From NCBI RefSeq assembly GCF_964355755.1, contig NC_092672.1, positions 18,224,501 through 18,288,500 of the forward strand: 64,000 bases of DNA, given 5' to 3'. Both the position numbers and the translations under genes were made by a program. The notes under the pieces are model-generated. The model ran no database searches, was not told the DNA's origin, and worked only from the letters and a program-made list of their open reading frames with translations. Origin of the DNA: Antedon mediterranea (Eukaryota; Echinodermata; Crinoidea; Comatulida; Antedonidae). This document shows positions 1,538 to 64,000 of the stretch, one piece after another; position 1 is the stretch's first letter, and each line of letters opens with the position of its first letter.

Positions 1538-18385
<16,848 letters not shown>

Positions 18386-33440: not shown

Positions 33441-33671
33441 TAAAATGGATAGAGAACGGGATTGTTTAAATCAAAGATCTTTTTAATAAAGATGCAACAT
33501 TAAAATCTTTTTCACAACTTAAACAAGTGGTGCAAAGAAAACAATCCTTCACCATAGAATACTTTATGCTTTCTAATGCAGTCAAATAACCCCTTGTTAT
33601 TGTCAGGATATTATTTTTTCTATATTCTTCTTTCTTTCTACTTCGTCACAATTTTGGTTATAGTTACCATT

Positions 33672-33870
33672 AATCCACTCTTTTGGGAGATGAAGATAAT
33701 AATTGAAAATGAAAAGGATGACAGCATACTGAAACAATTAGTTTTGAATTTGGAAGGTTTTCATTCCTCTATGAGTTTTTTGTGCTATTGGTCATACGAT
33801 GCAGTCGTCCGGACTGTTATAATTAGATACTACTGCAGACTATTAATAATGAAATTAGACATATATAATA
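33672..33870 (+). pseudogene. Fragment of the same repeated family, opposite strand
   Basis: Plus strand reads IIENEKDDSILKQLVLNLEG and FHSSMSFL. After a +1 shift it reads AIGHTMQSSGLL. This matches the family's conserved GGFHxxMSFLGxIG block. It runs divergently from the N-terminal fragment at 33063-33440. It may be the upstream part of the copy split at 39998/47726, since all three lie on the plus strand in the expected order. Frameshift and later stops mark it as decayed. Confidence 0.45.
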
Positions 33871-34310
33871 GTGATCTGGTATTTCATTTATTTTCCACCT
33901 CCTATAGATAGTAACTGGCCACTGTCTGGGTCCCAAGGGTAAACACCATCCAAGTCAGTTAGCTAGACAAGAATATGCTGTCAAAACAAGTCATCCAGGG
34001 GTGTTTTCAGACATGCATGTTACAGTATCAGAGTTGTTTTCAATAACATGACAGCACAGGACTAAAAAAAAACCATGGAACTTGTTTTTGCAGACAATGC
34101 TGTAACATATATTATCTGTAAAGGCAATACATGGTCATTTTCTTGTTGATATGGCATTGAATGCATTGCTCATCTTGAAAGCATAGTATATATTTTCCAG
34201 TTGTCGAAGAAGATCTACGTGGCAAAACAGACATACTGAAGGCACTAGACATATTCGATGTACTTGTTAGAGCCCTACAGTTACTAGTCCTGTACATTAC
34301 AATTACTACT

Positions 34311-34775
34311 GTATATAGATATATAATCAGGGAAAATTTTCATTTAAAAATTTTGTTTAGCAATATTGCTAATCAAACTGATTTTTAAGTCGAGAAACAT
34401 AGTTTTGTATTGTATTTTTTGCTACACAATTTTCAAAATGTGTAGCAATAAGGTTGTTTTGTATAGCTTTTTGCTACGCTACACTGGCGAAAATGTTCCC
34501 TGATATAATACAACCTATAATCCTACTACCCTAGATATAGACATTTCTAAACTATTGATCTCAGCTCCGTTTCCATGGTAATTGATGAGTATAATATTAG
34601 TGTAAGGGGAGTTGGAATCACTGTTAGTGTAGGATATAGTTTTTAGTTGACCAGCTTGATGATAACACCTATGTACTGTAACTTGCTTGATATATTATTC
34701 TATTAAATTATCGGATCTATATTCTGTTGTGAAATACTGAAACAGTGTCCGAGATGTTTATACGACCCGGTAACA
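34311..34775 (+). repeat. Gypsy 5' LTR, interrupted by a hAT-like MITE
   Basis: Matches the 3' LTR at 39704-39992 except for a 175-bp insertion at 34328-34502. The shared part runs from TATAGATATATAAT to CCCGGTAACA with few differences. Confidence 0.8.
34328..34502. mobile_element. hAT-like MITE inside the LTR
   Basis: Ends CAGGGAAAATTTTC and, reversed, CAGGGAACATTTTC, the hAT-type CAGGG terminus. ATATAAT is repeated on both flanks (7 bp visible, 8 expected). The uninterrupted site is preserved in the 3' LTR. Confidence 0.7.
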
Positions 34776-34950
34776 TTTGGCGACCACGATGGGACAGGTA
34801 GGCAAATAAAGACATTTTAGAAGTAAAATAGAATTTAATGCTACCTGTTCAGCGACACGTCTGACCCATACTAGACTGTTGTGGTGCAACGAGTGCTGGT
34901 AGGATCGTAACAAGAACCTAGAAATAAGAGGGTGAGTTAGATTGACTACC

Positions 34951-36198
34951 ATGGCAAATGATATGACACCACTTCAATGCTACGAACTGGTAATAAAGCA
35001 GATAAATGCCGCAGATCAGCAGACTTTATTAAAGGTATGCAATTACTTAAAAATAAATGGGTACGAAGATATCACTGACAAGACAGATAGTAAATTGAAA
35101 TTAGGGAAGAAGATTCTAAAAGAAATTAATAAAGATGAATTAGAAGCACTGTCTGACGAACGTCTCATTGCCATGTTAAATGATCTGAGTAAATTCATGT
35201 ATGGGATTATTGTCGGTGTAACATCGAGTAATGTCACGACGACCAGTACGACTCCAGCGACGACAGATGGGGGCCTAGTTAGATTGACTAGACGAGACTT
35301 TAAAATTGCTGGACAAATTGGAGAGCCGAGACAAAAGGACCGACTCATATTTTCAAGTTTGGTCCACCAAATTGAAAATGCCAAGCTAAAGGCCATCCCC
35401 GACTCGGAAATAATAGAAGCTGTTGTACGGGCCGTGGGACCAGGATCAGCTCTACGCAGTTATCTTGAATGTCGCCGAAACATCACATTACCAAATCTGC
35501 GCCGAATGCTGCGATCCCATTATGGTGAAAAAGAAGCAACCAAGCTGTACCACCAACTTTCGAGGAACACCCAAGAGCCGAGAGAATCAGCCGGCACCTT
35601 CTTAGTTAGGACATTGGACTTGAGGCAGAAGGTGATATTTGCGAGCCAAGAGAGTGAAACTGGTTTGGAATACGATTCCAAACTAGTGGATAGTATGTTC
35701 AGACATGCATTGCTGACCGGATTAAGAAGTGAATCGATCCGAAATGAGTTAAAACTGTACTTACAGGACAAAGGAGTGACGGATGAAATACTGTTTGAAC
35801 GGATGAATAGTGCGGCAAGTAATAAAGCAGAGCGATGTGAAAAGCTTGATCGACACTATATTGTTGAGGTCAAAGAGAGTTGAGTGCACGAAGAGAAATA
35901 CCAGAAACCAAAGGAGGGCACCTTGATGCAGGAGATGGCCGAACTAAAGGCGGGAATGGCTGATATGGCAATTCTGAAGACCCAAATGGCCACCTTGCAA
36001 GAACTGTTGACTAATGAACCACCACGATTCCAAAGACAAGCACGTAGATTGTGCCAATCATGCCAGCAAAACAATGAAACGGAATGCAGTCATTGTTATA
36101 TATGTGGGTCGTCAGAACATTTCGCACGAGGATGTCGGCAACGAAGAAATGATCAATCGGGAAACGGCCGACGGTTACAGTCGGGAGACAAACTGTAA
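34951..36198 (+). CDS. gag: Gypsy gag with zinc knuckle
   Basis: The frame from the ATG at 34951 runs about 310 codons to a TGA at 35881-35883 and continues in the same frame to 36198. The second part contains CYICGSSEHFARGC, a CX2CX4HX4C zinc knuckle, preceded by an additional Cys cluster. The first part is an alpha-helical capsid-like region. The single in-frame TGA may be a mutation or a read-through site. Pol lies in the -1 frame relative to gag. Confidence 0.75.
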
Positions 36199-36311
36199 CC
36201 TGTAAATATCAACCCCACACGTCTCACATCTGTAACATCTCTCCAGAGAAAGAAGAGAAAATCGTTCGACTGGTAGGCAAGAAGTGCACAGTCACTTGCT
36301 ACTTTGAAAAA

Positions 36312-36965
36312 GTGAAGACGACAGTACTCTGGGACATGGGGGCCCAAGTGTCGATAGCACCAGCCTGGTGGGTATCGACATATTTACCGGACATGAAACC
36401 TAAACCACTTGATGAACTAATTGGGAACACCAACCTTCATTTACAAGCTGCAAATGGTACACCAATTCCATTCAACGGTTGGATCGAAGTGATCATGACT
36501 TTATCAACCAATCAGCCTGCACTTACGGTTACCTTACTAATATCACCAAATAATATGGAAAGGCCAATCCTGGGGTACAACGTCATTCAGGAGATAGTGA
36601 AAAGAGATAACACAAGTACGTCCATCCAAGCGGCTTTCCCAGCAATGAGAAAAACCGACATACAAGCATTTTTTAGCCTTATAAAAGCTGAATACCCACC
36701 TGAGGTAGCCACCGTCATCGTGGGGAGACAAGATGAAGTCAATCCTAAGCAGGGATCATCATGCGTGACATGTAAGGTACGCTCTCCTTTTTACTTTATC
36801 GGGAAATTACTACTATTTGAACCCGACGATCAGGCAGCACCTTCTGAGAAGTTACATGTAGGCCTACCACCTTCAGTGGTACAACTCCAGGACGGAACAA
36901 TGAAAGTGAACATATTTGTCTTAAATGACAGCAATAGTGACATAATTTTAAGAAGACGCACATAA
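36312..36965 (+). CDS. Gypsy aspartic protease region
   Basis: Retropepsin-like region with WDMGAQVS where D(T/S)GA is expected, then the flap-like GTPIPFNGW and the ERPILGYNVI segment matching the usual ILG motif. The active-site Thr/Ser is Met, which in known retropepsins would impair catalysis. It ends at a TAA and resumes in the same frame at RT. Confidence 0.7.
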   Translation: MKTTVLWDMGAQVSIAPAWWVSTYLPDMKPKPLDELIGNTNLHLQAANGTPIPFNGWIEVIMTLSTNQPALTVTLLISPNNMERPILGYNVIQEIVKRDNTSTSIQAAFPAMRKTDIQAFFSLIKAEYPPEVATVIVGRQDEVNPKQGSSCVTCKVRSPFYFIGKLLLFEPDDQAAPSEKLHVGLPPSVVQLQDGTMKVNIFVLNDSNSDIILRRRT

Positions 36966-36992
36966 TTAGGTTCCCTGAATATATTTGAAGGC

Positions 36993-38465
36993 ATGGAGAT
37001 CTGTGAAAAGGAAGCTGTACCACCAACGCCTGTAGTTATCAATTCAATGACTGATTCACCCCTAGGGATTCCACCAGTAAACTTAACAGACTTAAACAGA
37101 AATCAACTTAGAACTGCCACTGAATTGCTGGTGGACGAGGCAGCAGCTTTTGCGAAGAATGACAACGATTTGGGATGTTTGCGAGATTTAAACATGAAAA
37201 TTAGATTAAAAGACGACGAACCCGTTCAAAAAACATATATTTCCATCCCACCACCACTGTAAAGAGAGGTCAAGACCTATTTAAAAGATCTTATCGGCAG
37301 AGGATGGATTCAAAAGTCTGAGTCACCGTATTCATCCCCTGTTGTATGTGTTAGAAAAAAGGACTGCAGTTTAAGGTTATGCATAGATTACCGAGAGCTA
37401 AACAAAAAAACTATTCCGGATAGACAGCCTATACCTAGAATTCAGGATGTTTTGGACAGCCTTGGAGGAAACTCATGGTTCTCTACACTTGACCAAGGAA
37501 AGGCATATCACCAAGGATTTGTAGCCGAGGAGAGCAGACAAGCTACGGCATTCGTTACTCCATGGGGCCTGTATGAATGGCTTCGGATTCCATTTGGGCT
37601 TACTAATGCCCCAGCAGTTTTTCAACGACACATGGAGTCTTGTCTTGATGGTTTAATTGGTGAAATTACTGTTGTATACTTAGACGATATATTGGTATAT
37701 GGGAAAACGTTTGAAGAACACACAGCCAATCTACGACGAGTTCTGCAACGATTACAAGAACGAGGTGTGAAGTTAAAATCGAGCAAGTGTTTGCTTTTCA
37801 AGTGTGAAGTACGTTATTTGGGTAGAGTAGTCTCGGAAGACGGTTACACAATGGATCCCAGTGAAACGGAGGCAGTATTAGCACTACGTGACCGACAACC
37901 AACAACTGTAGGAGAAGTGAGAAAAATCGTTGGCCTTCTCGGGTATTATTGGCAATATATTCCCAAATTCTCAAGTATTGCAAAACCACTATATAATCTT
38001 TTAAAATGTGAGACTCAGAACGAGAAGCAGACGAAGAAAAAGAAGATGATGTCCAAACCCAATCGACGCCAAAAGAACAAGCAGATTCTCTCAAAACAAC
38101 CAGTAGTGTGGACCCTGCAGCATCAAAGCACACTAAGCACGCTCATCGATTGTTTAACATCACCACCTGTGATGGGTTTCCCTGATCACAGTCAACCATT
38201 CGTATTGCACACGGATGCATCCAAAGACGGGTTGGGAGCAGTACTTTACCAGTTACAAAAAGGAAAGCTCCGGGTTATTGCATACGGATCTAGGACCCTA
38301 AGCCCAGCAGAGAAAAATTATCATCTCCATTCCGGAAAACTTGAATTTTTGGCGCTGAAATGGGCTATTACCGAGCGGTTCCGGGATTATTTATATTATT
38401 CACAACCTTTTACTGTATATACTGACAATAACCCACTAAATATGTTCTTACATCAGCGAAATTGA
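36993..38465 (+). CDS. pol: Gypsy reverse transcriptase and RNase H
   Basis: Same frame as the protease, with a further TAA at 37260-37262. Visible RT motifs: [38 protein letters not shown] and YLDDILVYG. RNase H follows with [27 protein letters not shown] and TDNNPL. The frame breaks at 38465 just before the GYRWVAEL connection segment, which continues at 38462 in another frame. Confidence 0.88.
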
Positions 38466-39275
38466 ATGCGACTGGCTATAGATGGGTTGCCGAATTAGCG
38501 GACTTCAACTTCTCAATAAAGTACAGACCTGGACGAATAAACATTGACGCGGATACTTTATCGAGACTACCACTGGATATCAGCAATTTTAAAAATGACT
38601 TTACAGAAGAGGTCCACGAACCACACCATATCACCTTCAAGGGAACGGGCAGGAAGAGCGATTTAACCGAACATTATTATCTATGCTGGAAACATTCACT
38701 CAACAGACTTGTACATGCCTACAATTGTACACGACATGATGCAATGGATATTCACCATTCTTTTTGATGTACGGGAGATACCCACGTCTTCCAGTTGATA
38801 TTGCATTTGGACTCCATAAACCATCAGAGAGAGACACAGTAAATCCTTCCGAATATGCTCGTCAATGGAAATCAAACATGGAGTAGGTATATAGAGTAGC
38901 AGCGAGGAACAGTCAGAAATCAGCCAACAGAGGAACAACTACGATCGAAAGGTAGCGTACACGTCTCTAGAACCCGGTGACAGAGTATTGGTCAAAAACT
39001 GTGTGCACCCCGGAGGACCAGGAAAGTTGCAGAGCTTCTATGAAGATGATGTGTATGTGGTATTGGAACAAAAAGGTGAAGGCATGCCCGTTTATGAAGT
39101 TACACCAGAACATGGCCATGGTAGACATCGTACGCTTCATAGAAATCTTCTTTGTCCGTGTGACTACCTGCAGACGGAAGAAGACAAAGAAAATACCAGC
39201 TACGAACCATGTTCCAGAGAGGAAGCAGTGAACGGCCTCCAGCATTCTGATGATATATATATAAACTTTATTTAG
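38462..39275 (+). pseudogene. Gypsy RNase H tail and integrase remnant
   Basis: After the RNase H tail (YRPGRINIDADTLSRLP, to ~38580) the sequence passes within ~70 bp to the C-terminal integrase region (LNRLVHAYNCTRHDA at ~38700, MYGRYPRLPVDIAFGL in broken frames at ~38765). It then reaches the tail domain with YVVLEQKGEGMPVYEV and GRHRTLHRNLL (38990-39180). The zinc-binding domain and the D,D-E catalytic core are absent. Confidence 0.75.
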
Positions 39276-39703
39276 ACACGAGACTGATGTGCAGTACAAC
39301 TTGTTCAATCAATATTGATTGTTTTTACACAAGTTCGTGATACTGTATTACAAAACAAAAAAAATCAACACCATATAAATACAACAGAAACGAAAAAAAT
39401 TGAAATTGAAAAGAAACAAAATTACAGCAGAATCCCCTTCATCTGATTATATATTTACTGTCGTGGTACGTGAGACCATGCCCGGATTGATTTGGAAGTT
39501 TTCTCCCCGGGTATCAAGCGTGCGAGGCTTGGCTCAAATGAATGCAATATCAAGACCAAAAGAAAGACAACAAGTTGTTGATTGCCGTTACCAGACCATT
39601 TATTGTGTACGAATCAACGTCACTCAGAAAATAAAGAGAACGAAGAAAGGAAAACCCTGCAAATATACAAACAAGCGTTACATAATTTCAATATATATAT
39701 ATA

Positions 39704-39992
39704 TATAGATATATAATACAACCTATAATCCTACTACCCTAGATATAGACATTCCTAACCTATTGATCTCAGCTCCTTTTCCATGGTAATTGATGAGTAT
39801 AATATTAGTGTAAGGGGAGTTGGAATCACTGTTAGTGTAGGAGTTAGTTTTTAGTTGACCAGCTTGATGATAACACCTATGTACTGTAACTTGCTTGATA
39901 TATATATTATTCTATTAAATTATCGGATCTATATTCTGTTGTGAAATACTGAAACAGTGTAGGAGTATTTATGTTTATACGACCCGGTAACA
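39704..39992 (+). repeat. Gypsy 3' LTR
   Basis: Second copy of the LTR seen at 34311-34775, without the MITE. It is preceded by an (AT)n run rather than a clear polypurine tract. Confidence 0.8.
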
Positions 39993-40177
39993 TACTTATC
40001 AGAGACCAAGGTGAAACAAGGATTGATTGTACCGATGAGTCTATAACACACATACCTCAAAAGCTTGACAATGAAACATTTTCTCAAACAAAATCCTACA
40101 GGCTCATTATGGGTGCAGTATATGTCTATGGACTCCATAGAGTAGCACTTTGGGCATTCATTAAATCACAACGTACT

Positions 40178-40725
40178 TGTACGTGATTGGCGTACCATAC
40201 TTACCTGGGGTTTTGGACAGCGTGGTGTGTTCACGCAGGTTGGGTTGAAACGTTGTCATGTTATGTTATGTTGAAGTATAGCTTCTTACCTTTAGTGATT
40301 CTTACCTTTAGTGATTAAAAGAGGCTGTGAGCTTAATGCTCGTAATACTAGTTGCCTCCTCTCCTTTTGTTTATGTGAATGTCGAGGTTGTTTTTGAATT
40401 AATTTGTTTTTGTGCTGTTAATGACATGTTCTGGTAGTGAGTTCCATTTGTTGATTGCTCTGACGTCAAAATAGGTATCTCTCCTGATGGTTTTGTATCT
40501 AGGTTTAGATAGTGTAAGTGAGTGTCCTCTGGTTATATAACCTCCAGGGTTCTGCCTTAGAGTGAAAAATGAACTTGCCTCAATGTTTACTATACCACGG
40601 ATAATTTTGAACATTTCAATGAGATCACCTCTATCTCGTCTTTCTTCGAGTGTTGGTAGGTGAGTATTTAATAAACTTCACTTTACTGATAATAGTGGTC
40701 GATATATTTATTCGAGTCAGTAAAA
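40178..40725 (+). repeat. BEL-1 5' LTR with LINE insertion
   Basis: Equals the 3' LTR apart from the insertion at about 40276-40671. Confidence 0.85.
40276..40671 (-). mobile_element. 5'-truncated CR1/L2-like LINE in the LTR
   Basis: The minus strand encodes the C-terminal end of a non-LTR ORF2: MFKIIRGIVNIEASSFF, TRGHSLTLSKPRYKT, YFDVRAINKWNSLPEHV. Its 3' end carries two copies of AATCACTAAAGGTAAG, the kind of short tandem tail seen in CR1/L2 elements. It inserted into the LTR in antisense. Confidence 0.8.
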
Positions 40726-40955
40726 TTGGTGCCGAAACCTCCCTGATCTACTAGGTCTAGAATTTGGATGATAACGATCGGGATAAAGATACCAACGAAT
40801 CAGGTAATATTATGGATAAATTATTCCGAGTACCACATCGGCTAGTCTGACTCTCCAGGTAGGAGAGTTAGACAAACGAGTAGAAGCTTTGGACGCCGTC
40901 CAGAGCCAGGTAGAAGAAAAGCTATCGGACGATCAATTACGATTTTCGTTCTCGT

Positions 40956-41940
40956 TTGTTAAGAACAAAATTGGAAGCAATGAATAGAATAGCTGAGCTT
41001 TCCGAGCAGTCACAGTTACACGTGAGCTCGAGTAATAATGACACTACCAACGGTATTGGCAGTCGTCTTAATAATACAACAAAGCTACCTAAATTGGAAA
41101 TAAAGAAATTTTGTGGTGAAATATCTGAATGGCAGACATTTTGGAATCAATTTTGTGCTGAAGTGGATAGTACCACCATTCCCAAGGTTAATAAATTCAC
41201 ATATTTAAAAAACCTTTTTTCAGGAGAAGCTTTGAACAGCATTGCAGGTTTAGCGCTGACAGACATAAATTATGATATTGCAATTCAATCACTAAAAGCT
41301 CGGTTTGGTCGACCGAAGCGTATAATCTTTTCACATATTCAGGCACTCATTAATATCAATGTCAATACAAGTCAGGCTTCAACCGCAGCGGAGTTGTGGT
41401 CTATTCGAGATGAACTTAATGGACATGTCCAATCATTAGGAGCACTAGGGGTCAATGGAGAAGAAAAATATGGCATAATACTGACTCCCCTTATTTTATC
41501 ACGCTTACCCGGGCGCTTACCTCCAGAAATCCGCCTTGAATGGGCAAGATCAGGAATCGGTAAGAAGCAGATTTAAAATATTTACTGGAATTTTTTTAAT
41601 CAGAGATTGAGCGTCGCGAACGTTCTGAAGGGTTTGCGAATACGGTTCACAGTTCAGGAAGTGTGCAAAATCAAGGAACAGTTTCAGCTATGCCAGCTAC
41701 AGTTGCTGTTGCAGGTAAAATCAAGAACTGTATATTTTGTAATAGGACAAATCATAGCTCGTAGAAATGTAGACAACTTAGATCGATGACATATGCTTAG
41801 AAATCGAATGCGATTAAGGAAGCACACTCCTGCTTCAAATGTTTGAACACTAGTCACTTTGCAAGGAAATGCAGTTTCAAATGTCGCAGTTGTAACGGAC
41901 CTCATCATGAAATTATCTGGCAGAAATGAACAACACAGAC
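40956..41940 (+). CDS. BEL-1 gag (DUF1759) and zinc knuckles
   Basis: 40956-41576 carries the BEL gag core: LPKLEIKKFCGEISEWQTFW, NKFTYLKNLFSGEA and LKARFGRP. After frameshifts, 41730-41935 has Cys-rich zinc knuckles, with CFKCLNTSHFARKC followed by CRSCNGPHH. Confidence 0.8.
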
Positions 41941-42039
41941 AGCCACTCCGGTTCCAGTTTTCACAGAACCAGTAGTCCAAGCTGCAACTACAGAACCATT
42001 AGTCCAAGCTGCAACTACAACTCATTCGAACACTGACAT

Positions 42040-42598
42040 TCCTCATAGTTATACTGTCTTACAGAATGCTAAAGTCAGAGTTAAAGGTAGTAAAGTAATG
42101 TTGTAAATAAGGTAGGAGCAGTGGGGTTAACACCCAAATCATTTGCATTTGCTGCCTTTGGTGAAGGTAAGTCCTCACAAAATGAAACTAGGAATATTTA
42201 CAAATTAAATGTTGAAAATAAATATGGTAGGAATAATGAATTGCATTGAAGTTAAATCGATATGTGCACCCATGTTTAGAGCTAAGGTTCCACAGTCCTC
42301 CTTGAAAGCAGTAGCCCATCTCCCATTAGAAGATGACTATGACAAAGAGAGGGAGATCCATGTTGACATTTTAGTGGGCTTAGATTATTATTGGCAATTT
42401 ATGGGACGTGGCATACACAATCTTCCAGAGGGTCTGGTAGCCCAAGACACTGTTTTCGGTTGGGTTATCTCAGGGAGATGGAATTTGAATGACAATATAA
42501 ATGTTACTCGTAATCATAATGTTAACCATGTATCCCCACAGTTGCTTTGCATTACAGACATATCCGATGACAGATTGAAAAAATTCTGGGACAAGTGA
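42040..42598 (+). CDS. BEL-1 aspartic protease region (DUF1758-like)
   Basis: The upstream frame is broken by stops. 42209-42598 reads the protease-RT linker, with VDILVGLDYYWQF and LVAQDTVFGWVISG, both BEL landmarks. The catalytic DTG is not visible in an intact frame. Confidence 0.65.
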
Positions 42599-42602
42599 TG
42601 GA

Positions 42603-44825
42603 GTGCAAGATGCTGTACTGAAAGAGTTCAATGAGAGCATACGTCTGGTGAATGAGAGATATGAAGTTAAGTTACCATGGAAAGAGGGTATGAAAGAGTG
42701 CCTTCAAAATAATAGAGAGGTAGCTAAGGTGAGGTTAAATAGTCTGAATAGGAGGCTTGCTAAAGACAAAGAATTAGGTGAAAAATATGAGGCCTCTATC
42801 TCTGAAATGGAGAGATTAGGCATAATTGCTGAAGCTCACACCACAGATAGTGGTATTGTTTATTACCTTCCCCATCACCCAGTAGTGAAAGATGCCAGTT
42901 TTACAACCAAGGTTAGGGGGTGTCACGAAAGCTCAGACCACGAAAGCTCAGACCCCCTAAGACCTAAGATCACGAAAGCTAAGACCCAACACCTAAGATT
43001 ACAAATACTAAGATATACTACAGATTAAAAACAATACTTGTTTATCCATACATAATTTTAAACACAGTAGGTTTCATTTATTACCATAAATATAATTTAA
43101 TACTACCGCAAAACATAGATAAACTCACATTATTTTCGCCCGTTGAGTAAATGTATATTTTTTCTTTACAACAAACAAACTTGACGGGTTGTTTGTTGGT
43201 ATATATTTACTCCATTGTGTTGGTTCAGAGGATGTTTTTCTTACGCACCTGCCTTTCTTGTATTTTGACTCCAAATTTGTTGACTAACTTTATCCTGAAC
43301 ACCACACTTTAAAATTAGGACTTATAAGTACTTTCAGAAGGAGAAACACATAATAACAAATAAATAAATCCTTTAAATTGATGATTTTACATATGTGTTT
43401 CTTTGTATACTGTAATGTAACTCCTCGAGCTCCCACCATGCTCAATGTTTTTGTTTCCCTGGAGCGCCAAAAGAGCAACAATAATAGTACAAGCATAAAA
43501 ACAGAAAGAAAACGAAACAAAAAAACTTATCATGATTTTTAAATTAAAATTTATTTGCCAGTATTTATTTCTTCGTACTTGCATGATTATACTATTATCA
43601 TTACAATTTTAATTTTACATTGTTCCATCCACACTGTAGATGGACTCCACAGAGTTTTCAGCCCTCTATATAATTTTTGCTCTTTTGACGTTCCATAGAA
43701 ACAAAAACATTGAACATGGGGTAGGCCTACTGTAGTACTGTAGGTTAGTCATTTTGTGTGCGAGAAAAACGTCTGTAAAATCATCAATTTAAAAATGTAT
43801 TTGTTACTTTTTATGTGATTCTTTTTCATGAAAGTGCCAATTCTAAGGTGTGGTATTCAGAATAAATGTTGGGAGTTAAAATACAAGGCAGGTGCGAAAG
43901 ATAAATATTTGTAATCTTAGGTGTTGGGTCTTAGCTTTCGTGATCTTAGGTCTTAGGGGGTCTGAGCTTTCGTGGTCTGAGCTTTCGTGACACCCCCAAG
44001 GTTAGGGTGGTATTCGATGCCTCTACTAAATGCAATAATGGGATTTCACTGAATGATTGCCTAGAAACGGGCCCCCACTTATACCAGGACTTGTTGACAT
44101 TTTATTACGGTTCCGAAGGTGGAAAATTTGATTAACCTCTGACATTACAAAGGCATTTTTGCAAATCAAGGTCCATGAGGATGACCAAAATGTCCATAGG
44201 TTTTCTTTGGAAAAAGGAGGAGAAAATCAGAACAATGAAATTTCTGAGAGTGCCATTTGGCAATGCTAGTAGCCCATTTTTATTAAATGCCACAATTCGC
44301 CACCATTTGACAAAGTACCCAAGTTGCCTCCCTATTACAGAACTAAAGGATAACCTTTATGTGGATGACTGGCTCACAGGAGCTGACTATTATGAGGATG
44401 CATTATTATTGTTTCAACAGGCAAAAGAAATCATGGCCCAAGGGAAATTCCCCCTCACATCCTGGAACTCTAATAACACAAAGGTAACAGAGATGTTCTT
44501 TAATGAGTTTGGTTCAAAACACATAGAACGACAGAGTGTCAAGGTTCTTGGTTTGAAATGGATAAAACCTTCTGATAGTTTTGGATTTGATGTATTAGAT
44601 GTTTCAGAGGGATTAGTAGCAACAAAACGAGTTGTTTTGAGCATCTTAGCTAGAATGTTTGATCCATTAGGATTTCTAACTCCCTTCACTATGGCTGTTA
44701 AAATCTTGTTACAAGATATTTGGTTATTAAATTTAGGATGGGATGAACATACCCCAGAGATGATTCAGCAAAGGTTTGACAAGTGGATATATGGATTAGT
44801 CTATACGAAATTGGGAAATCCCTAG
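42603..44825 (+). CDS. pol: BEL-1 reverse transcriptase, split by a transposon
   Basis: 42603-42916 encodes the start of RT (LPWKEGM, then LGIIAEAHT and YYLPHHPVVK). RT resumes at 44006 with VVFDAST and NDCLETGPHLYQDLL and continues to MKFLRVPFGNASSPF, the catalytic YVDDWLTG and FPLTSWNSN up to 44825. A stop and a frameshift lie around 44130-44170. Confidence 0.85.
42917..43996. mobile_element. Young long-TIR element with 9-bp duplication
   Basis: Flanked by identical CAAGGTTAG at 42908-42916 and 43997-44005. The termini are perfect inverted repeats of about 91 bp starting GGGGTGTCACGAAAGCTCAG. Each contains the 15-bp word CACGAAAGCTCAGAC twice, a variant CACGAAAGCTAAGAC once, and ACCTAAGAT twice. 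Inside (43244-43898) are inverted arms homologous to those at 27559-28385. No transposase. The 9-bp duplication and subrepeat-bearing ends point to a foldback/Mutator-like group. Confidence 0.85.
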
Positions 44826-45452
44826 ATGCTATACTCCTGCATTGTTATGGTCAGGTATGTCGGATATTGAGTTACATGGGTTATATGGGGCAGTAGTTTA
44901 CCTTCGTATCCCAAAGTCTGATGGATTTAAAGTTTCACATCCAGAGCGAGAGTCTCTCCAGTGAAAAAAGTTTCACTTCCTCGTTTGGAATTATTAGGTG
45001 CCCTTCTTACTGCTAGGTTAGTAGTTTTTGTAAGAGACGCATTGAGACTTCAGAATGTAATTTGTAGATTTTGGACAGACTCCACAGTGACATTAGGCTG
45101 GATTCAAGGAGATCCAGCAAGGTGGGATACCTTTGTAAGAAACAGGGTTATAGAAATTCGTAACCTTTCACAGATAAACACTTGGGCCCATTGTCCAGGG
45201 AAACACAACCCTGCAAATTTGTTAACTAGGGGTATCTCTGCAGGAGACTTAGTATCATCTGGTGGTATTTGGCTTGATGGTCCAGCGTGGTTAGCTAATA
45301 AGTTTGATTTACCTACTCATAGTGTTTCATTAGAAGAAATAGAAAATGTAAAGCCAGAAACACAGTCAGCTTTGCTAGTAGAATTATGTCCCCCAAAGGT
45401 CAGAATATTTGATGTTCTTAGATGGGGTACTTTAGAAAAGCAGTTAGAATAA
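44826..45452 (+). CDS. BEL-1 RNase H region
   Basis: After a frame change, 44961-45452 reads LPRLELLGALLTARL, the RFWTDSTVTLGWIQG catalytic segment and WAHCPGKHNPANLLTRGI, which are BEL RNase H hallmarks. Confidence 0.8.
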
Positions 45453-45534
45453 ACTGCATTGTGTAAAAGGTTTGTCAAAAAGTTGAAAGGTCGGATGTGA
45501 CTTTCCAGAAAACTTCTCTCATGATGAACTGGCT

Positions 45535-46920
45535 ATGGCTAAACTTTGTTTATTTCAACAGGAAAAAGAAGTTGCATTTGGACAAGAACTAGATTCTTTA
45601 AAGAGTCGTAAATCTATAAGTGGCTCTTCTCCACTCTCTAAATTACGTCCATTTATGGGATATGACAGGTTGTTAAGAATTACGGGTCGTCTGCAGCAGG
45701 CAGACCTTTCTTATGATGAGAAACACCCTATCATTCTACCTAAAGGCCATTTCACAACATGGTTAATTCAATCATTTCATGTTAAATTACAAGATGCAGG
45801 TGTTGACACAGTTATCAATGCAGAAATACATATTGGATACTTGGTGTCAGAAAGTTAATGAAGTCCGTTAAAAAACGGTGTATACCATGCCAAAAAGTTG
45901 ATTCCCTGGCATGCAATGAAGTAGCAGCACCACTTCCGAAATTGAGAGTGCACCAGGCACCCCCATTTACGGTCACTGGTTTGGATTATGCCGGACCACT
46001 GTTCAGCCTTGATTTTCCGAATGTTAAGCTTTACATACTATATTGTTTACGTGTGCAGTGGTAAGAGCAGTCCATTTAGAATTGACTGAATCCTTAACTC
46101 AAAAAGATTGTATGTTGGTGTTCTATCAGTTTTTTATTCTGATAATGCTAAAACATTTGTAGGTGCTCGGACAGAGTTATCCACCCTTTTCGGTGAGGAG
46201 GGTCCGAAGTGGAAATTTATTGCTCCCAGATCTCCTTGGTGGGGAGGATGGTGGGAGCGTCTTGTTCGCTCCATTAAAGGAGCTTTAAAAAAGTCAATTG
46301 GAAGTAAATGTCTCAAAAGAACAGAACTCGAAACATCATTGCAAGAGGTAGAAGATTGTGTGAATTCTAGGCCATTAACCTTTGTTGGAGATGAGGTAGA
46401 CACTTCAAAGGCCTTAACCCCTTCTCATTTTTTAATAGGCAAGGTTGCAGGATTCCAAAATAAAATATCTGAACTTGAAGTAGAGATAACGAGAGCGAAT
46501 TTGTGTGAAAGAGAACTTGTGCGACAGAGAAGACTAGAGTTGTTTTGGGAAGTATGGAGCAAGGAATACTTGAGAAATTTACCTCCCACAATAAATGTTG
46601 GATTAGGTTTGCTTGTATTAATCCGTGAGGATAATATACCTCGCATGAAATGGCCCCTGTGACGTATTGTTAAAGAATTTCCTGGAAGGGACGGAGTGAC
46701 TCGATGTTTTGAATTAAAAACATGTAAGGGTAATTTAGTACGGGCTATACAAAGATTACATAACCTAGAGTTGGACGGTGGGAGTAACAACCTTCCACAG
46801 TCCGTATGCACATCCTTCCATAAGTCTTGTGAAATTAGTGGTAATGAGAAAAAGCCAAAGGAGAACAATTCAAGGCGTAGTAGTAGAACGATCAAACCAA
46901 TAGATAGACTTGATTTGTAG
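45535..46920 (+). CDS. BEL-1 integrase and C-terminal domain, frameshifted
   Basis: Three successive frames hold the zinc-binding HHCC region (HPIILPKGHFT to CIPCQKVD), the core start (VTGLDYAGPLF), the SDNAKTFVGA acidic segment and PWWGGWWERLVRSIK with the catalytic Glu. The DUF5641-like tail follows (WSKEYLRNLPP, LVLIREDN, GRDGVTRCFELKT). A gap and stops at 46020-46110 remove part of the core. Confidence 0.8.
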
Positions 46921-47567
46921 TAGTGTTTGTTTAATCAATAAATTGACTGATACAGTGTTTTCTATAGAGAGAATATGATTTAATGAAGAACTTTTATGTT
47001 ATTGTTTGACGTTATTTAACAGAAGTATCAGTAAAATTACTATTAATATCTTCAATTTGTTCTAGAAAAGATATACAAGTTAATTTAAATGATGGTTCTA
47101 ATGTTTATTCAAGTTTGTAAGAAGAACAGTTCAGTATGAATATTGTAACGATTTTGATACCCCTCTTATTGTTATGGAGTAGTCCTCTTAGGAGGCTTCT
47201 GATTGGTGGGAGCTCCAACCTTGAACAGGAAGAGTCATAGGCTTAAAAATTATCTGATCCAATCCATACTAGGAATTACTTTGTACCTGAAGTTACACGC
47301 AATTATTAGGTAGGGCATACGAATATCATTTCTATTATGTACTGTATCATCAGTTGTGAAAAGAATAAAACGCCTCCTGAATTCGTAACAGATTGTAGTT
47401 TGTGCTTCTGTACGTCATATTACTTACTTATCGTCGTCGGAATAACACCGACGCCAAACCCGCTAACAACGAGGCAGGGAAACGTTACAATATATATTGT
47501 TGCGTTGCGGCATTGCATTTGCCATATTTTATTTGTTGATATTTATAGTTAATATCAGGTGGGAGAA

Positions 47568-47720
47568 TGTACGCGATTGGCGTACCATACTTACCTGGGG
47601 TTTTGGACAGCGTGGTGTGTTCACGCAGGTTGGGTTGAAACGTTGTCATGTTATGTTATGTATGTTGAAACTTCACTTTACTGATATTAGTGGTCGATAT
47701 ATGTATTTGAGTCAGTAAAA
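47568..47720 (+). repeat. BEL-1 3' LTR
   Basis: 153 bp from TGTACGCGATTGGCGTACC to GAGTCAGTAAAA, matching the 5' LTR. Directly followed by the GTACT target duplication. Confidence 0.88.
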
Positions 47721-48370
47721 GTACTGGTAACTTCATGCAATATTTAGAGACACTTAAAAAAATGTTTCCATTCTACGCAGCCACTGGACACTCACACTAT
47801 GCTAAATCTGTGTATATCTATATCCAAGATATGTTTGACCTAAATGAATTACAGCCTGACATTTAACAAGAGGATGTACATGGTCAATTTGTCATCCGCA
47901 GAACCGACCGCTTCTGCGCTGGGTTGCCAACAGACTTGATAATAGAACAGGAACTAATGAGATGAAGACTACTGGCGGTCTTACTCGAGAAAGCGGTATG
48001 GAAGAAAGACATACCGCTATGCAATGCCTGCTTGTGCAGAAATCAATGATTCAATGCAAGAGCTATTATGAAAACAATATAGCACAAGTAAACAACACAA
48101 AGAAATGACACAAGCATGAAAAACCAGAGATCAAAAGTATGCAGAGGAGATAATATATTCATTTTTTGAGGATCCCAATCCCTTTGAAGCTGCAAAGGTG
48201 GTCCACAACATTGCAACTGGAGAGACAGGAACAGAATCAGCTAATCCTCACAAAGCTGTTGAAGTGGGAACAAACATTTTAAAGAAAATGGAAGGACAAT
48301 GTGCATTTCAGTACACATTTCGCAAAAAAAACCAAGTACTAGGATGTGACACTCAATGGTGAAACCGTAT

Positions 48371-54960: not shown

Positions 54961-56388
54961 TGAATATTAATGACTGGCCCAATGAGAAAATCAGTGTTTC
55001 AAAAGATGATGATGAAGCAAAACTATGCATGAACATCCAAATCGCTGATGCTTCTAATGTTAAGCTAGATGGATTAGAAACATGGGAGATCCTGCTCAAA
55101 GAGTACAGAAAGCATCTTTATGGACTTGATTCTGAAGCATTAAATGTTGAGAAAGTAAAAGAGCTTGAATTGATCTTACTAAGAAGGGTTCAACAAGAAT
55201 GTTTTGGAGAAGAATTGAAAGCATTACAGAGAGGAAAAGAAGTATAAAAAAACAGTAAGTTGACCTTACTAGATCCCAAGTGTGATGAAGATACCAAGCT
55301 CATCAGAGTAGGTGGGAGATTAAGAAAGAGTAGTGGTAACTTGGAACTTGATGTTCACCCAGTTCTGCTGGAACCCAACCATCACATTAAAAAACTGTTA
55401 GTTAAAAGAATAGATGCTAATGTTTACAATCACCACGCTGGTGCGGAAAGTATTCACTTACATCAGGCGAAGATACTGGATCTTGAAGGGGAGAAGTTTG
55501 ATAAAGTCAGTGATGAGAAGTTGCATAGAATGCTACAAATGGCGAAGTAATTCTGAGGTTCCGAAAATGGCAGATGTCCCAGAAGCAAGATCAAGAATTG
55601 GAAAACCCCCTTTTTTCTCAACAGGAATAGACTGCTTTGGACCAATGCTAATAAAAATTAAACGATCACAAGAAAAAAGATGGGGAGTGATTTTTAAATG
55701 CCTAACAACGCGAGCTATCCATTTAGAAATAGTTAGTGGAATGGACACAGACACTTTTTTGTTAGCATTGAGAAGATTCATTGCAAGACGTGGAACTCCA
55801 AAAGAAATCCTTGCGGATTGCGGAACTAATGCCAAGAGAGAGCTGAATGAAGCGTTTAATAATATAAGAGTTGAACTGCAAGAACGGCTGGCTAAACAGA
55901 TTGAATTTAAATTCAATCCACCAGGTGCTCCACATTTTGGCGGTGTCTGGGAGAGGGACATAAAATCTGTGAAGACCGCCTTAAAATGCTGTCTCAAAGA
56001 TAGAGTAATTAGTGAGGTATTACTTGCGACTATAATGGTAGAAGTTGAAAGGCTTTTGAATGCCAGACCTTTGGGATACGCATCCAGTGATGTTGCAGAT
56101 CCAGATCCGATAACACCAAACTTGCTATTAATTGCACGATGGGATTCCACACTTCCAGCTGTTGCTGTAAAGCACATTGAACTCAAGGGGTGTCGTCAGT
56201 GGAAGCATAGCCAAGTGATTGCAGATTTATTCTGGAAAAGATTTGTTGGAGAGTACCTATCTAGCCTACAGATTAGACAAAAGTGGTATAGAGAAAGTTC
56301 CAATTAAAAAGTTGATGACGTCACATTGGTAATCAATGATCAACTGCCAAGAAGAGAATGGCTTATTAATAGGATTATTAAAGTGTAT
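54960..56388 (+). CDS. BEL-2 integrase
   Basis: 54960-55550 carries the linker and the HHCC-type region (HPVLLEPNHHIKKLL, HHAGAESIH). An overlapping frame 55414-56307 holds the core: STGIDCFGPM, RAIHLEIVSGMDTDTFLLAL, GTPKEILADCGTN and PPGAPHFGGVWERDIKSVK, i.e. D, D and E in order. It ends with WKRFVGEYLSSLQIRQKW, and BEL-3 interrupts right after RIIKVY. Confidence 0.85.
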
Positions 56389-56932
56389 TGTTGTTGTGGA
56401 CTGTATACCAAGTATATACTAGCCTTTTATTTTATACCTTACTTTAAGTAAAACCGGGATGATCAGTCATGACAAGACAACATTCCTAAGAACCCAAAGC
56501 TATGACCTTATAGGTTATTACCATGGAAACCTGCCCTCCCTCTCTTAGAAGATATGATAATTAGCTAAAGAAATCACACTTTACCTTACTGTGATAAAGG
56601 AAGAACACCTATTTTTTATTATACGGAATTTACATGATTGAAACAATATTTAAATGTTTTAGAAACAACAGAATTATATAGGATCCACAGTCAAGTGAGT
56701 AATTTAACTTTAGTTACTTGTAGTTTCAGTATTATAATTGTAGATTAGAGATTTTGTTATATATTGATTATAACCTCACCTAATCTTTTGAGGCTATTAT
56801 AAGTTTTAAAGTAAAGTAGATTCAATTAGGCATTTCAACTAATAATGATAACGTTGATCGAATGATTTATTGCATTTAATTGTTTAGAATGTTTATTGTA
56901 TTCTTTTATAGTTTACACGTTGGAATAAAGTT
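56389..56932 (+). repeat. BEL-3 5' LTR, 3'-truncated
   Basis: Nearly identical to 58947-59488, ending at GGAATAAAGTT where the deletion junction lies. Confidence 0.85.
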
Positions 56933-56941
56933 ACTACACCG

Positions 56942-58844
56942 ACAGTCAGGTGATTTTGGGATACATATCCAACGAATCTAAACGTTTCCACGTATATGTG
57001 GCAAACAGAGTCCACAGAATACACTCAGTATCTGACTCCAGCCAGTGGTACCACATTCATATTGACCAGAATCCAGCTGACATTGCATCAAGATCTGTGA
57101 GAGCAGAAGACCTTACAGTAGGAATACTACGTGGTTCACAGGACCCGAGTTTCTGTGGAGTTCACAGCCTAGTCCGACAAATTCCATCAATTTGAAAGAG
57201 GTGTTGCCGCTGAACGAAAATGACCCCGAAATCCGTACAAAGGTTTACACCAAAGCCACCAATGTAATGCCAGGATTAGGAACTGAAAGATTTAAACGCT
57301 TCTCGAGTTGGAAATCTCTCAAGCGAGCAGTTGCAGCCTTAATACTGAAGACCAGAGTGTTGAAGTCAAAAAGGGTAAACAAGCAGCAAGATGTGACACA
57401 ACGATTGCTAGAACGGCCGTCGTTGATTGAACTGCAACGTGCGGAAATGATCATACTAAAAGAGGTCCAGTACCAGTCTTTCAGCAAAGAAACATTAGAA
57501 CTGACACCCGAAAATAAAATTCAACCTACGATCAAGACTGGCCCTCTTAAAAAATTAAGTCCCTTCATAGACCAAGATGGACTGCTAAGAGTTGGCGGAC
57601 GCTTAAGAAGGGCTGACCTCGAACTTGGAGGCAAACACCCAATTCTCCTCCCGAAAGACAGCTACGTCTCTAAATTGGTCGCAGAACACTTTCATTATCA
57701 AGTGCAACATCAAAGTCGTCAGCTGACAACTGCCGCTATTCGATCAGGAGGCATGTGGATACTTGGAGCACACAACTTGGTAAGAAGTATCGTGAACAAG
57801 TGTGTTGTGTGCAGAAAACTCAGAGGAAAACCGTTAACCTAACAAATGGGAGACTTACCCAAAGACAGACTAGAGGCAACTCCGCCATTCACCAACGTCG
57901 GTACTGACGTATTCGGCCCATGACCTGTCAAAACAAGAAAAACCAGAGGTGGAGCAGCTGACTCCAAGAGATGGGCTGTAATCTTTACATGCCTCTGCAG
58001 CAGAGCCGTTCATGTCGAAATAATTGAATCAATGGATACATCAGCCTTCATTATGGCACTACGTCGTTTTATTGCATTACGAGGATCAGTTTCCAGACTC
58101 AGGAGCGACTAAGGCACCAACTTCATTGGAGCAAAGAACGAGCTTGACGCTTCACTTAGACAGATGGATCAGGCACTCGTTGACAGGTACCTGACCTCTC
58201 AAAATTGTCAGTGGATCTTTAACCCACCACATGCTTCACACTTCGGAGGAGTTTGGGAGAGGCAGATCGGAACCATTCGACGCATCTTAGAAGCAATGTT
58301 TGATCAACTGGGCGGACATCGACTCACACATGAAGTCCTAGTGACATTAATGGCTGAGGCATGCGCAATTGTTAATTCACGTCCCATCACCACACAATCC
58401 GCAGATCCAATAGCCCTCAGCCCCTCCATGCTATTAACTCAGAAATCCATGTCACTACATCCACCCCCAGGAAACTTTGTAAAGGAGGATATCTATGGAA
58501 GGAAGAGATGGCGTCAGGTCCAGTACCTGGCAGACCAGTTCTGGGCTCGCTGGAAAAAAGAGTACCTCCAAAATCTTCAATCTAGACAGAAATGGTTCCA
58601 TACCAAACCAGACATTTCAGATGATGATGTCGTGCTTCTTCGTGAAAAAGACGACCCTAGATGCAACTGGCCACTCGGACGTGTAATTAAGACATACCCT
58701 AGTGAGGATGGAAAGGTTTGCAAAGCTGACATCCTTATATGCCGAGATGGAACTCGACGTACCTACTTAAGACCAATCTCCGAGCTTGTATTGATCCAGA
58801 AAGCTCCAATCTCTACTTTGTTTAGACTTGATTATTCTGATTGA
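56942..58844 (+). CDS. BEL-3 RNase H tail and integrase, with stops
   Basis: 56950-57195: VILGYISNESKRFHVYVANR and WYHIHIDQNPADIASRSV (end of RNase H). 57192-57842: linker and zinc-binding region (HPILLPKDSYVSKL, then NKCVVCRKLRG) ending at a TAA. Core pieces (VGTDVFGP, ESMDTSAFIMALRRFIALRG) follow in broken frames. 58164-58844: NPPHASHFGGVWERQIGTIR, AEACAIVNSRPI and the C-terminal VVLLREKDDPRCNWPLGRVI, ending at an intact stop. Confidence 0.82.
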
Positions 58845-61700: not shown

Positions 61701-62241
61701 GTACACAAAAATGTCCCAATCTATATTATAAGTGAGAGAGTTTGTACGTTTGTTTGTCTTTCTGTTTGTTCGTTATAAAAATTGATGTTTCTGCACGTAA
61801 CTATACATATGGGGTATCAAAATTATCGCAATTGTACCGGGAAGGTTTTAAGCTACATTTTAAAAAGTCTGGGGATTTGGTAGGAGAGGGGGGGGGGGGG
61901 GAGTTGGGGTTCAGAGGATAGTGGAGATTTTGCTTAGGCTAGGGGTAGTAGGCTATCAAATTGACAAAAAGTATTTTAATTATCCCTGGGAAGGGGATGG
62001 GAGGGGGTGGCAATGTAGGCCTATCACCATGACCGAAACTGTACTTGGAATGTTTTAAACTACATTTGAAAACTACAACTTAGGGATTATGGGTTGGGAG
62101 TGATGGCTAACATAATTTGTACTGGCATCGTCTTAAAGACATCACCCAGTATCTGAGGTATGTTGGGAGGGGAAGGAGGAGGGGCGAAAATACTGGCGTA
62201 ATGAAGTAGCCTATCCCGATGGGGAACACTGTATGGTTTAG
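61701..62241. other. Gene-free repeat-like stretch
   Basis: Contains TCTATATTATAAGTGAGAGA followed by GTTTGTACGTTTGTTTGTC, the kind of start seen in many dispersed repeats, and a G15-type run at ~61890. No coding support. Confidence 0.35.
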
Positions 62242-62727
62242 AAATGATTAATTCCCTCCCTGAACCATTTGATGATGGAAAGTTTTCAGTCAGACAGACA
62301 CCAGGGAAGTTTAAGGGAATTTGGACAGACATGGGAGTGGAGACGACAATTATAAAAGAAAGCAAGAGCAACAGCGGAATAATAGGATTGACTCGTAGAG
62401 GTTCAGCTGTACTGAGGTAGACATGTATACGGCACCTTTATAGGTGTTTCGCCTAACAGGAAATGTCGAGGAAAAGGCAAATCAACACCCTGAAATATTT
62501 AAGGCTGGAAATAGAATGTTATTTATTTCAGGCGGATATCAAATGAGATTGATGTCAAAGGTGGTAAATCAGATAGGAATTAATGAAATTGTAGAAGACT
62601 TATTGTCAACTCATACTGAAGCTGATACAAGAATGCTCTTGTATTTTAACAACCGAATGATCACTATACATTCTAAAGGACGGCTAATTGTTAAAGATAA
62701 AGACGTGCTAGTTCTTTTGACACATTA

Positions 62728-63104
62728 GGGAGGTTTCGCAACCTTACGAATACGATAACGAAAACGGGTATAGTTTTTGATCTTTTGCACATTTTGCATT
62801 TGAATCAGGAATGATTCATGATTATAATATAATTATAGATTTATTGAAAGTAATTTACTAAAGTAATTAGTAAAAAGTAAAGGTCAATTTTGATAAATAG
62901 CAGTTTTTAAAGTCCTCACTCGCTTTGATGTTACGCTAGGCCTAGGCAGCCAAGCACCAAAGCAATACGTACCACCTGCGCTTCGCTCAAATTTACCGCA
63001 GTCATATTTTGGACGGCGCCCTCAATATTTTTCCTGCCTTACGAATAACGAATACGTGTGCATGACGTTTTCGTTATCGTATTTGTAAGATTGCAAAACC
63101 TCCC
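62728..63104. mobile_element. TA-flanked MITE in the gene-family copy
   Basis: Inverted ends GGGAGGTTTCGCAACCTTAC and, reversed, GGGAGGTTTTGCAATCTTAC extend to ~38 bp. Flanking TA at 62726-62727 and 63105-63106. It lies immediately after the DxDVLVLLTH block. Confidence 0.8.
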
Positions 63105-63434
63105 TATTATTGTTGAGAAATGCAGGGAATTTGTGAAGTTTGGTTTGAGACTGGCCACATGACCAAGATGTTAGATTTTAGAAGGTATATTCCAGTGCAT
63201 TCAATTCTGATCGGATTGGGAAAGAAGTTAGTAAAGTGTTGCCAGCTGCACATTCCCTTACAGAATGTGACACAGTCTCATCATTATTTGGAGTAGGAAA
63301 GAAAACAGTGTTCCGTATATTGCTGAAAATGCCAAAAGAACACTTAAATAATCTTCAAGATCTTAATGATGATGACATAAAGCTGTGAACTTTTCAAGGA
63401 AATTTGTTGCTAATCTTTATGATACTACTATGTA

Positions 63435-63670
63435 TGGCACGCCAAGCTGTCATTTATTTGGAAATAAAGATATCTTAGTTTAAAACTAAGATATCTTAGT
63501 TTAAAACTAAGATATCTTAGTTTAAAACTAAGATATCTCTATAGAGATATCTCTATTAAAAACTAAGATATCTCTATTAAAAACTAAGATATATCTATTT
63601 AAAACTAAGATATCTCTATTAAAAACTAAGATATCTCTATTGCTTGAATAAATGACAGCTTAGCGCGCCA
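63435..63670. mobile_element. TA-flanked MITE with palindromic 21-bp tandem repeats
   Basis: Inverted ends TGGCACGCCAAGCTGTCATT and, reversed, TGGCGCGCTAAGCTGTCATT, with TA at 63433-63434 and 63671-63672. The interior is a tandem array of AAGATATCTTAGTTTAAAAC units (3 copies), then AAGATATCTCTATTAAAAAC units (about 5). Each ATATCTTAGTTTAAAACTAAGATAT-type stretch is self-complementary, so each unit pair can form its own hairpin. Confidence 0.8.
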
Positions 63671-64000
63671 TAACTATGCGATTTGAAGGAACACATGAAT
63701 GTCTCAATAAGCTACGGGTTTGTATGGCAACAACACGTTGTGCATCAGTATCAAAACTTCCACCATGTGAAGCATCATTCCTGCAACACGTCAAACGTGC
63801 ATCATGGCAGACAAAGACATGGTGTAAATCACATGTGGCAAAACCAGAACTTCCGAACCCTATTGGAAATGGTTGGGAATTCAATGATAATGGTGTAAAG
63901 TCCTGTTTTTTTTTAAAGGCCAAACTGCAGTAGACAAATTGTGTTGTAAAGATTTATGTCGTCCGTTGAGGGCGCATATTATAATATGCTTCGAGTATCG

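Follow-up and report, generated by a model that had tools for sequence, protein, structure and literature searches.

A broken DNA transposon copy, probably of an AcademX-like family, with a predicted FEN1-like nuclease half in the Antedon genome

The locus at 62217-63941 (+) of the window, by which the whole 64,000-nucleotide stretch of DNA analysed here is meant (C3:18224501-18288500 within a 354-Mb assembly; C denotes chromosome labels, and L and E denote locus and element labels), is not a gene but a defunct DNA transposon copy with an internal deletion. The family to which it belongs is a transposon rather than an ordinary gene family, and its long frames are predicted to join a DDE transposase to a nuclease of the FEN1/EXO1/XPG group. 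That a transposon and this nuclease fold occur together here is close to certain, and the explanation as a whole, i.e., a dead copy of an AcademX-like transposon with a DDE transposase and a FEN1-like nuclease, is considered highly probable. In the preliminary description of this DNA, the locus had been assigned to a marine-invertebrate gene family; what had been seen is rather a transposon product, namely the C-terminal half of a DDE transposase encoded by a TIR DNA transposon. An invertebrate protein that keeps turning up uncharacterized thereby becomes a defined part of a named transposon type, and such copies can be repeat-masked rather than counted as genes.

The broken copy and the transposon nest around it

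The locus comprises four separated pieces of one element, which match paralogues at 85-98% DNA identity (Table 1). The peptides on which the preliminary description was based are present, in order, on the + strand: EADTRMLL and KDKDVLVLL are encoded in the frame 62444-62728, LTECDTVSSLFGVGKKT in the frame 63182-63388, and LPPCEASFLQHVKRASWQTK in the frame 63664-63933. Among the 2810 open segments of the window, the family profile of the nuclease half matches these pieces at E-values (5.5e-23, 4.1e-15, and 3.4e-10) that exclude chance, and the profile of the transposase half matches the open frame 62205-62417. The locus is regarded as a relic because its pieces lie in different frames, approximately 946 bp has been lost, and two inserts interrupt it. 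The first two nuclease carboxylates, positioned as in the paralogues, fall within the lost stretch, and the relic keeps five of the seven acidic positions, namely those of E-A-D, D-x-D, and the D of E-C-D; the residue preceding C-D, Glu in the relic, is Gly in 20 of 21 family members. The first of the inserts has a target duplication of 3 bp; the second, 240 bp long, is palindromic, contains repeats of the AAACTAAGATATCT type, and has a target duplication of 6 bp.

Table 1. Window positions of the parts of the two transposon relics and of the inserts in the first
Feature	Position	Strand	Evidence
First relic, piece 1, C-terminal portion of its DDE-transposase half	62217-62438	+	91% DNA identity to L006 3745-3978; transposase profile E 3.4e-8
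Deletion junction, ~946 bp (L006 3978 to 4924) absent	62439-62462	+	Comparison with paralogue L006
First relic, piece 2, carrying the nuclease motifs E-A-D (EADTRMLL) and D-x-D (KDKDVLVLL)	62463-62726	+	91% to L006 4924-5203; nuclease profile E 3.4e-10
MITE-like insert, inverted ends AGGGAGGTTTCGCAACC, flanked by ATT/ATT (62724-62726, 63106-63108), a placement that could move one or two bases	62727-63105		41-bp inverted arms, 93%; site uninterrupted in L006; matches the flanks of E22
First relic, piece 3, nuclease part with LTECDTVSSLFGVGKKT	63106-63432	+	94% to L006 5200-5528; profile E 4.1e-15
Palindromic insert, inverted ends and internal repeats, flanked by ACTATG/ACTATG	63433-63672		Site uninterrupted in L006
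First relic, piece 4, following the nuclease core, with LPPCEASFLQHVKRASWQTK	63673-63941	+	95% to L006 5523-5794; profile E 5.5e-23
Second relic part 1, transposase half, related to L031/L033	33648-34249	+	L033 272-318 at 47%, E 6e-6 to 7e-6; L031 402-472 and 479-498, E 0.001 and 0.048; profile E 3e-4
Second relic part 2, 27 aa	40059-40139	+	L031 539-565, E 0.006; weak alone, but in collinear order with the neighbouring parts
Second relic part 3, end of the transposase half and region before the nuclease core	47702-48341	+	L031 568-780, E 2e-40

The window holds two elements of the transposon family, both dead. Two or three copies had been expected in it; two were found by means of family profiles and relatives, and a third was not. 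When the relic's own peptides served as tblastn queries, nothing else in the window was matched significantly (the best match, at 47882-47962, had E 0.47), and the count of one copy taken from that search was wrong, as the family profiles and divergent relatives reveal the second, strongly diverged relic at 33648-48341. Its pieces at 33.6, 40.1, and 47.7 kb are considered one element because their matches run in order along L031, and their treatment as separate copies was dropped. Window positions 33651-34180, 40059-40139, and 47702-48338 correspond to L031 residues 402-498, 539-565, and 568-780, respectively. Two LTR retrotransposons cut this second relic, with LTR pairs at 34503-34776/39711-39993 (94%) and 40178-40271/47568-47661 (99%); reverse transcriptase and RNase H domains are found in the former (34503-39993) and Pao-type domains (Pao peptidase frames) in the latter (40178-47661), and both are nested in the one older transposon relic. 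Further retrotransposon frames occur at 55414-58844 of the window and at 3030-6419 of L008 (DUF5641 and rve, with Peptidase_A17 in L008), and one of these, with an open frame of 1130 aa, lies immediately beyond the downstream end of the window; transposons are thus nested throughout the region. In addition, a long tandem repeat open in three frames occupies 11667-12451 on the - strand. A scan of viral contigs with a single pattern gave no match, which is weak evidence.

Copies, ends and target duplications in the genome

When the genome was searched with the open frame of L005, the closest open paralogue (568 aa; C10:12834529-12836232), 77 of 588 candidates were scored and at least 79 match rows were obtained, with several rows to an element; with a 1247-aa member as the query, at least 45 rows were obtained from 37 scored candidates of 1186. 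At seven fully read loci (L009-L015), the frame is single and without interruption and spans 1247-1555 aa, lengths that may miss extra upstream exons, as the L009 frame begins inside the N-terminal Cys region. Within single long frames, the transposase and nuclease halves are both aligned, and fold models were built from L012 and L005, respectively. Several copies are nearly identical: L011 and L012 share 99.97% identity over 7747 bp on different chromosomes and between different flanks, and an identity of 98.6-99.2% over the main stretch is found for the pairs L013/L014 (C10 and C11), E22/E26 (C8 and C3), and E10/E19 (both copies on C8).

The ends of the element were placed in five near-identical pairs. 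Inverted repeats of approximately 0.5-0.87 kb are present in eight of these ten elements, with internal subrepeats in L013/L014 and E22/E26, and those of L011/L012 are short. Both ends were placed in nine of the ten, the left end of E20 not being found, and the nine elements are 5.5-8.0 kb in length with inverted ends that begin 5'-TAG. Directly beside the outermost TAG...CTA, at which the ends were set after the flanks had been inspected, eight of the nine carry an exact 3-bp target duplication (AGA, TAC, CTA, TCT, ATA, CCA, ACA, and TTT), for which the chance is approximately 1 in 64 per element, and none of these duplications extends to 4 bp. The remaining element, E13, has no target duplication at its placed ends. 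Furthermore, an empty site is available for E22, which sits inside a further member of the MITE family whose ends are AGGGAGGTTTCGCAACC and which also interrupts the relic in the window (C8 near 4419930 and 4426679): the intact MITE sequence at window position 62930 has CTA once, not twice.

Around the L005 frame, an inverted pair at 2226-2698/7823-8296 (96% identical, spanning approximately 6 kb, with no clear target duplication) was observed; this 474-bp pair was not accepted as the TIR, as its flanks are unmatched and the stretch is absent from L006 and L007. Matches to the nuclease half only, with a 545-aa frame and one TGA each, are found at C1:40306456, C3:19689515, and C10:11017615. One of these three places, L024, is 98% identical to the full-length L009 over the aligned part, which suggests that they may represent an amplified non-autonomous derivative.

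Predicted folds of the two halves

The nuclease half was examined in an alignment (A1) of 21 frames with a nuclease part spanning at least 250 aa, from which shorter or broken frames (e.g., L006, L007, and L031) were excluded; four pairs are at least 97% identical, so that 17 distinct families are represented, and the counts given below include those pairs. Members of A1 are 21-31% identical to the first sequence. The model of the L005 nuclease half built from these 21 sequences (pLDDT 80.2, pTM 0.77) was compared with known structures by VIA-align, by which EXO1 was matched at Z 14.8 (269 residues aligned, rmsd 4.0), followed by FEN1 (14.3), XRN2 (13.5), XRN1 (13.0), XPG (12.7), and GEN1 (12.1); the best 50 matches listed all belong to the 5'-nuclease group, one of them (9a88_I) being assigned by its XPG-like numbering. 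Foldseek placed XRN1 first (E 2.2e-4, TM 0.38), with FEN1 at 2.0e-3, and in a profile search of PDB sequences EXO1 accounted for five of the seven among the matches listed (best E 0.013). In two collinear segments of the latter alignment, the family residue D212 falls on D78 of EXO1 and D414 falls on D225 (GCD225). The PIN/XPG/FEN1-like fold proposed in the preliminary description is thus borne out by a paralogue model of fair confidence.

Exactly seven columns of A1 are at least 80% acidic among columns with at least 15 residues: D170 (19/19) and D212, E/D319, D321, D350, D352, and D414 (21/21 each). They follow the order of the seven metal-binding carboxylates of FEN1, which we take to be D34, D86, E158, E160, D179, D181, and D233; D212 and D414 are tied to EXO1 by alignment and the other five by order and secondary structure. 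The conservation of acidic residues, which had been named as a point to check, is therefore strict. Lys220 and Arg227, seven residues apart, are also invariant, and their counterparts in FEN1 are presumably Lys93 and Arg100. In the model, the segment GCDTISSLFGVGKK (GxGKK) is bracketed by two helices (398-410 and 424-433), a helix-hairpin-type place, as had been anticipated; the PDB profile search aligns it to EXO1 221-260. H408, before G-C-D, and K424, in GxGK, are each invariant as well (21/21) and may form a family-specific signature. Taken together, the nuclease half is predicted to adopt a FEN1/EXO1/XPG-like fold with the seven expected carboxylates kept, and, given that the families share no more than 21-31% identity with the first sequence, the fact that none of the carboxylates has been lost argues that nuclease catalysis is under selection. 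Sequence comparison by itself lends the fold weak support: scanning individual proteins against Pfam yielded no XPG domain; XPG_I was matched in one of the 21 nuclease-half members (E 0.0091, below the curated cut-off), which may explain the lack of annotation for such proteins, and XPG_I_2, presumably the asteroid type, was matched in none of the 21 at E 0.1 or better.

The transposase half was aligned (A2) from 15 frames with a transposase part spanning at least 280 aa; L011 and L013, near-copies of L012 and L014, are omitted from both alignments. The model of the L012 half built from A2 (pLDDT 80.2, pTM 0.80) was matched best to the P element by VIA-align (Z 12.1 and 11.9; 383 residues aligned, rmsd 6.7, 8-10% identity), a value to be read with the caution that Z below approximately 13, as here, may reflect merely a common arrangement in helical models. 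Hermes (7.8), ISCth4 (7.8), Transib (7.1), and RAG1 (6.6) follow, and retroviral integrases appear in lower rows among other RNase H-like and unrelated proteins. Foldseek returned no match for this half at E 0.001 or better, the best being Hermes at 0.058, and its first six places include Hermes, ISCth4, and Transib (E 0.058 or worse). Conserved acidic columns include D174 and D177 in the first strand and D339 after the fourth strand; two more, D578 and E582, lie beyond a helical insertion, in the last acidic helix. D174 is kept in 12/12 rows, D339 in 15/15, and E582 in 12/14, the two rows with Gln at the last position being those of the near-identical copies L010 and L019. From the model, D174 (or D177), D339, and E582 are proposed as the catalytic triad, and the long frames are predicted to hold a DDE transposase domain with a P-element/Hermes-like fold. 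The only Pfam call on this middle domain is DUF6589, which seven of the 15 members match at E 0.1 or better, the lowest value being 1.5e-8; L012 scores slightly above the cut-off for it (30.0 versus 27 bits, and 28.3 with the whole protein). Among the papers searched, none mentions DUF6589.

The Cys-rich N-terminus envisaged in the preliminary description is present in relatives and absent from the copy in the window. A CxxC...HxxC module precedes the DDE domain in most frames examined: both its CxxC and [YW]HxxC parts are seen in four of six long frames (L010, L014, L015, and L020), and the late-starting frames L009 and L019 contain the second part only. A CXC-like stretch at the C-terminus occurs in some families, being clear in L010, visible in L015, and absent from L014 and L009; Pfam TCR matches remain below the cut-off (E 0.0091 in L012 and 0.59 in L010).

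AcademX identity, possible mechanism and known systems

Academ DNA transposons reportedly go back to Kapitonov and Jurka in 2010 and the AcademX lineage to Kojima in 2020, the X presumably standing for XPG. According to a later article, AcademX has TSDs of 3 or 4 bp and AcademH of 9 or 10 bp, a difference that seems tied to the encoded nuclease versus helicase (Kojima, 2023, PMC10045372). The family described here fits on nuclease, transposase, and TSD length, and its assignment to Academ/AcademX, made from one published sentence of description, is therefore regarded as very likely correct. The family is accordingly not "undescribed" in kind, as nuclease-encoding AcademX with 3-4 bp TSDs was already named there, and the families in the Antedon genome may individually be undescribed. 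Among the papers searched for a link between Academ and XPG, none has "Academ," "XPG," and "transposase" together as whole words, and "AcademX" appears in a single one.

With regard to mechanism, the DDE domain would cut the ends of the element and join them to the target with a 3-bp stagger, and the nuclease would make or trim the other strand, either cleaving the second strand where the transposon ends or removing 5' flaps at donor or target junctions; movement would then require both catalytic centres. This specific role of the nuclease is put forward tentatively, at somewhat less than an even chance. A further-reaching reading, which we consider rather unlikely, is that AcademX would be a eukaryotic two-nuclease transposition machine, in which the DDE domain generates the 3' ends, the corresponding cuts in the 5' strand come from the fused FEN1-like nuclease, and their pairing sets the 3-bp stagger. 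The bacterial pair TnsA and TnsB provides the analogy for such a machine, and, if the reading were true, a flap-nuclease fold would serve as a core transposition enzyme.

Among the alternatives, the best surviving one, itself improbable, holds that the nuclease domain is a passenger or a regulator that only binds DNA and is dispensable for transposition. It would suit the predicted status of nuclease catalysis here and the variation of accessory nucleases and helicases among Academ and Kolobok lineages, as given in two articles (PMC10045372, PMC9587614). It is disfavoured because some carboxylates should have disappeared from a domain that is a passenger or lacks catalysis, whereas all seven are kept in every covered sequence (19/19 or 21/21) despite 21-31% identity; this conservation across very divergent families offers a testable case for a catalytic nuclease required for movement. 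More doubtful still is a TIR transposon of an unnamed, non-Academ lineage that acquired an XPG-like nuclease independently. Such an origin would agree with a transposase fold that is nearest in the PDB to the P element, with a middle domain matched by DUF6589 only (7/15 members), and with a comparison to Academ made by description; against it, a nuclease together with 3-4 bp TSDs is the combination printed for AcademX (PMC10045372), and a bivalve survey with 100 curated Academ elements (PMC10294476) indicates that Academ elements of great length are frequent in some marine invertebrates at least. Finally, the spread of a host PIN/XPG nuclease gene family (e.g., asteroid-like) by ordinary gene duplication, for which copies open for little beyond the nuclease half (L005, 568 aa; the 545-aa places) and the use of the fold by host repair enzymes might speak, is extremely improbable, as it is contradicted by the TIR and TSD structure (inverted ends, exact 3-bp duplications in 8/9 elements, and an empty site) and faces the transposase-like fold of full members, the near-identical copies on different chromosomes, and the lack of XPG_I_2 matches noted above.

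The AcademX-like transposon family can be compared with known systems in each of its halves and as a whole. With FEN1, EXO1, XPG, and GEN1 it has in common the predicted fold, the order of the carboxylates, a Lys and an Arg seven residues apart after the second Asp, and G-C-D before GxGK; by contrast, its identity to EXO1 and FEN1 is approximately 15% over the aligned part, and it has an extra region after the core (LPPC...H..R) and the fusion to a transposase. In the transposase of P elements, as predicted for the family, a long helical insertion in the RNase H-like core precedes the final acidic helix, but its identity to the family is 8-10%, and P elements make 8-bp duplications, whereas the family makes 3-bp duplications; P elements are not known to carry a FEN1-like nuclease. 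AcademX, as described by Kojima (2023, PMC10045372), is, like the family here, a DNA transposon with a DDE-type transposase and an encoded nuclease, and the 3-bp duplications lie within the printed 3-4 bp. The bivalve survey gives a mean length of 5565 bp for its Academ elements and places Academ almost exclusively in bivalves among the molluscs analysed (PMC10294476); most of the elements described here (5.5-8.0 kb) exceed that mean. AcademH, which belongs to the same superfamily by name and likewise encodes an accessory enzyme, differs in that this enzyme is a helicase and not a nuclease and the duplications are of 9 or 10 bp (PMC10045372), a contrast that makes what sets the duplication length directly testable.
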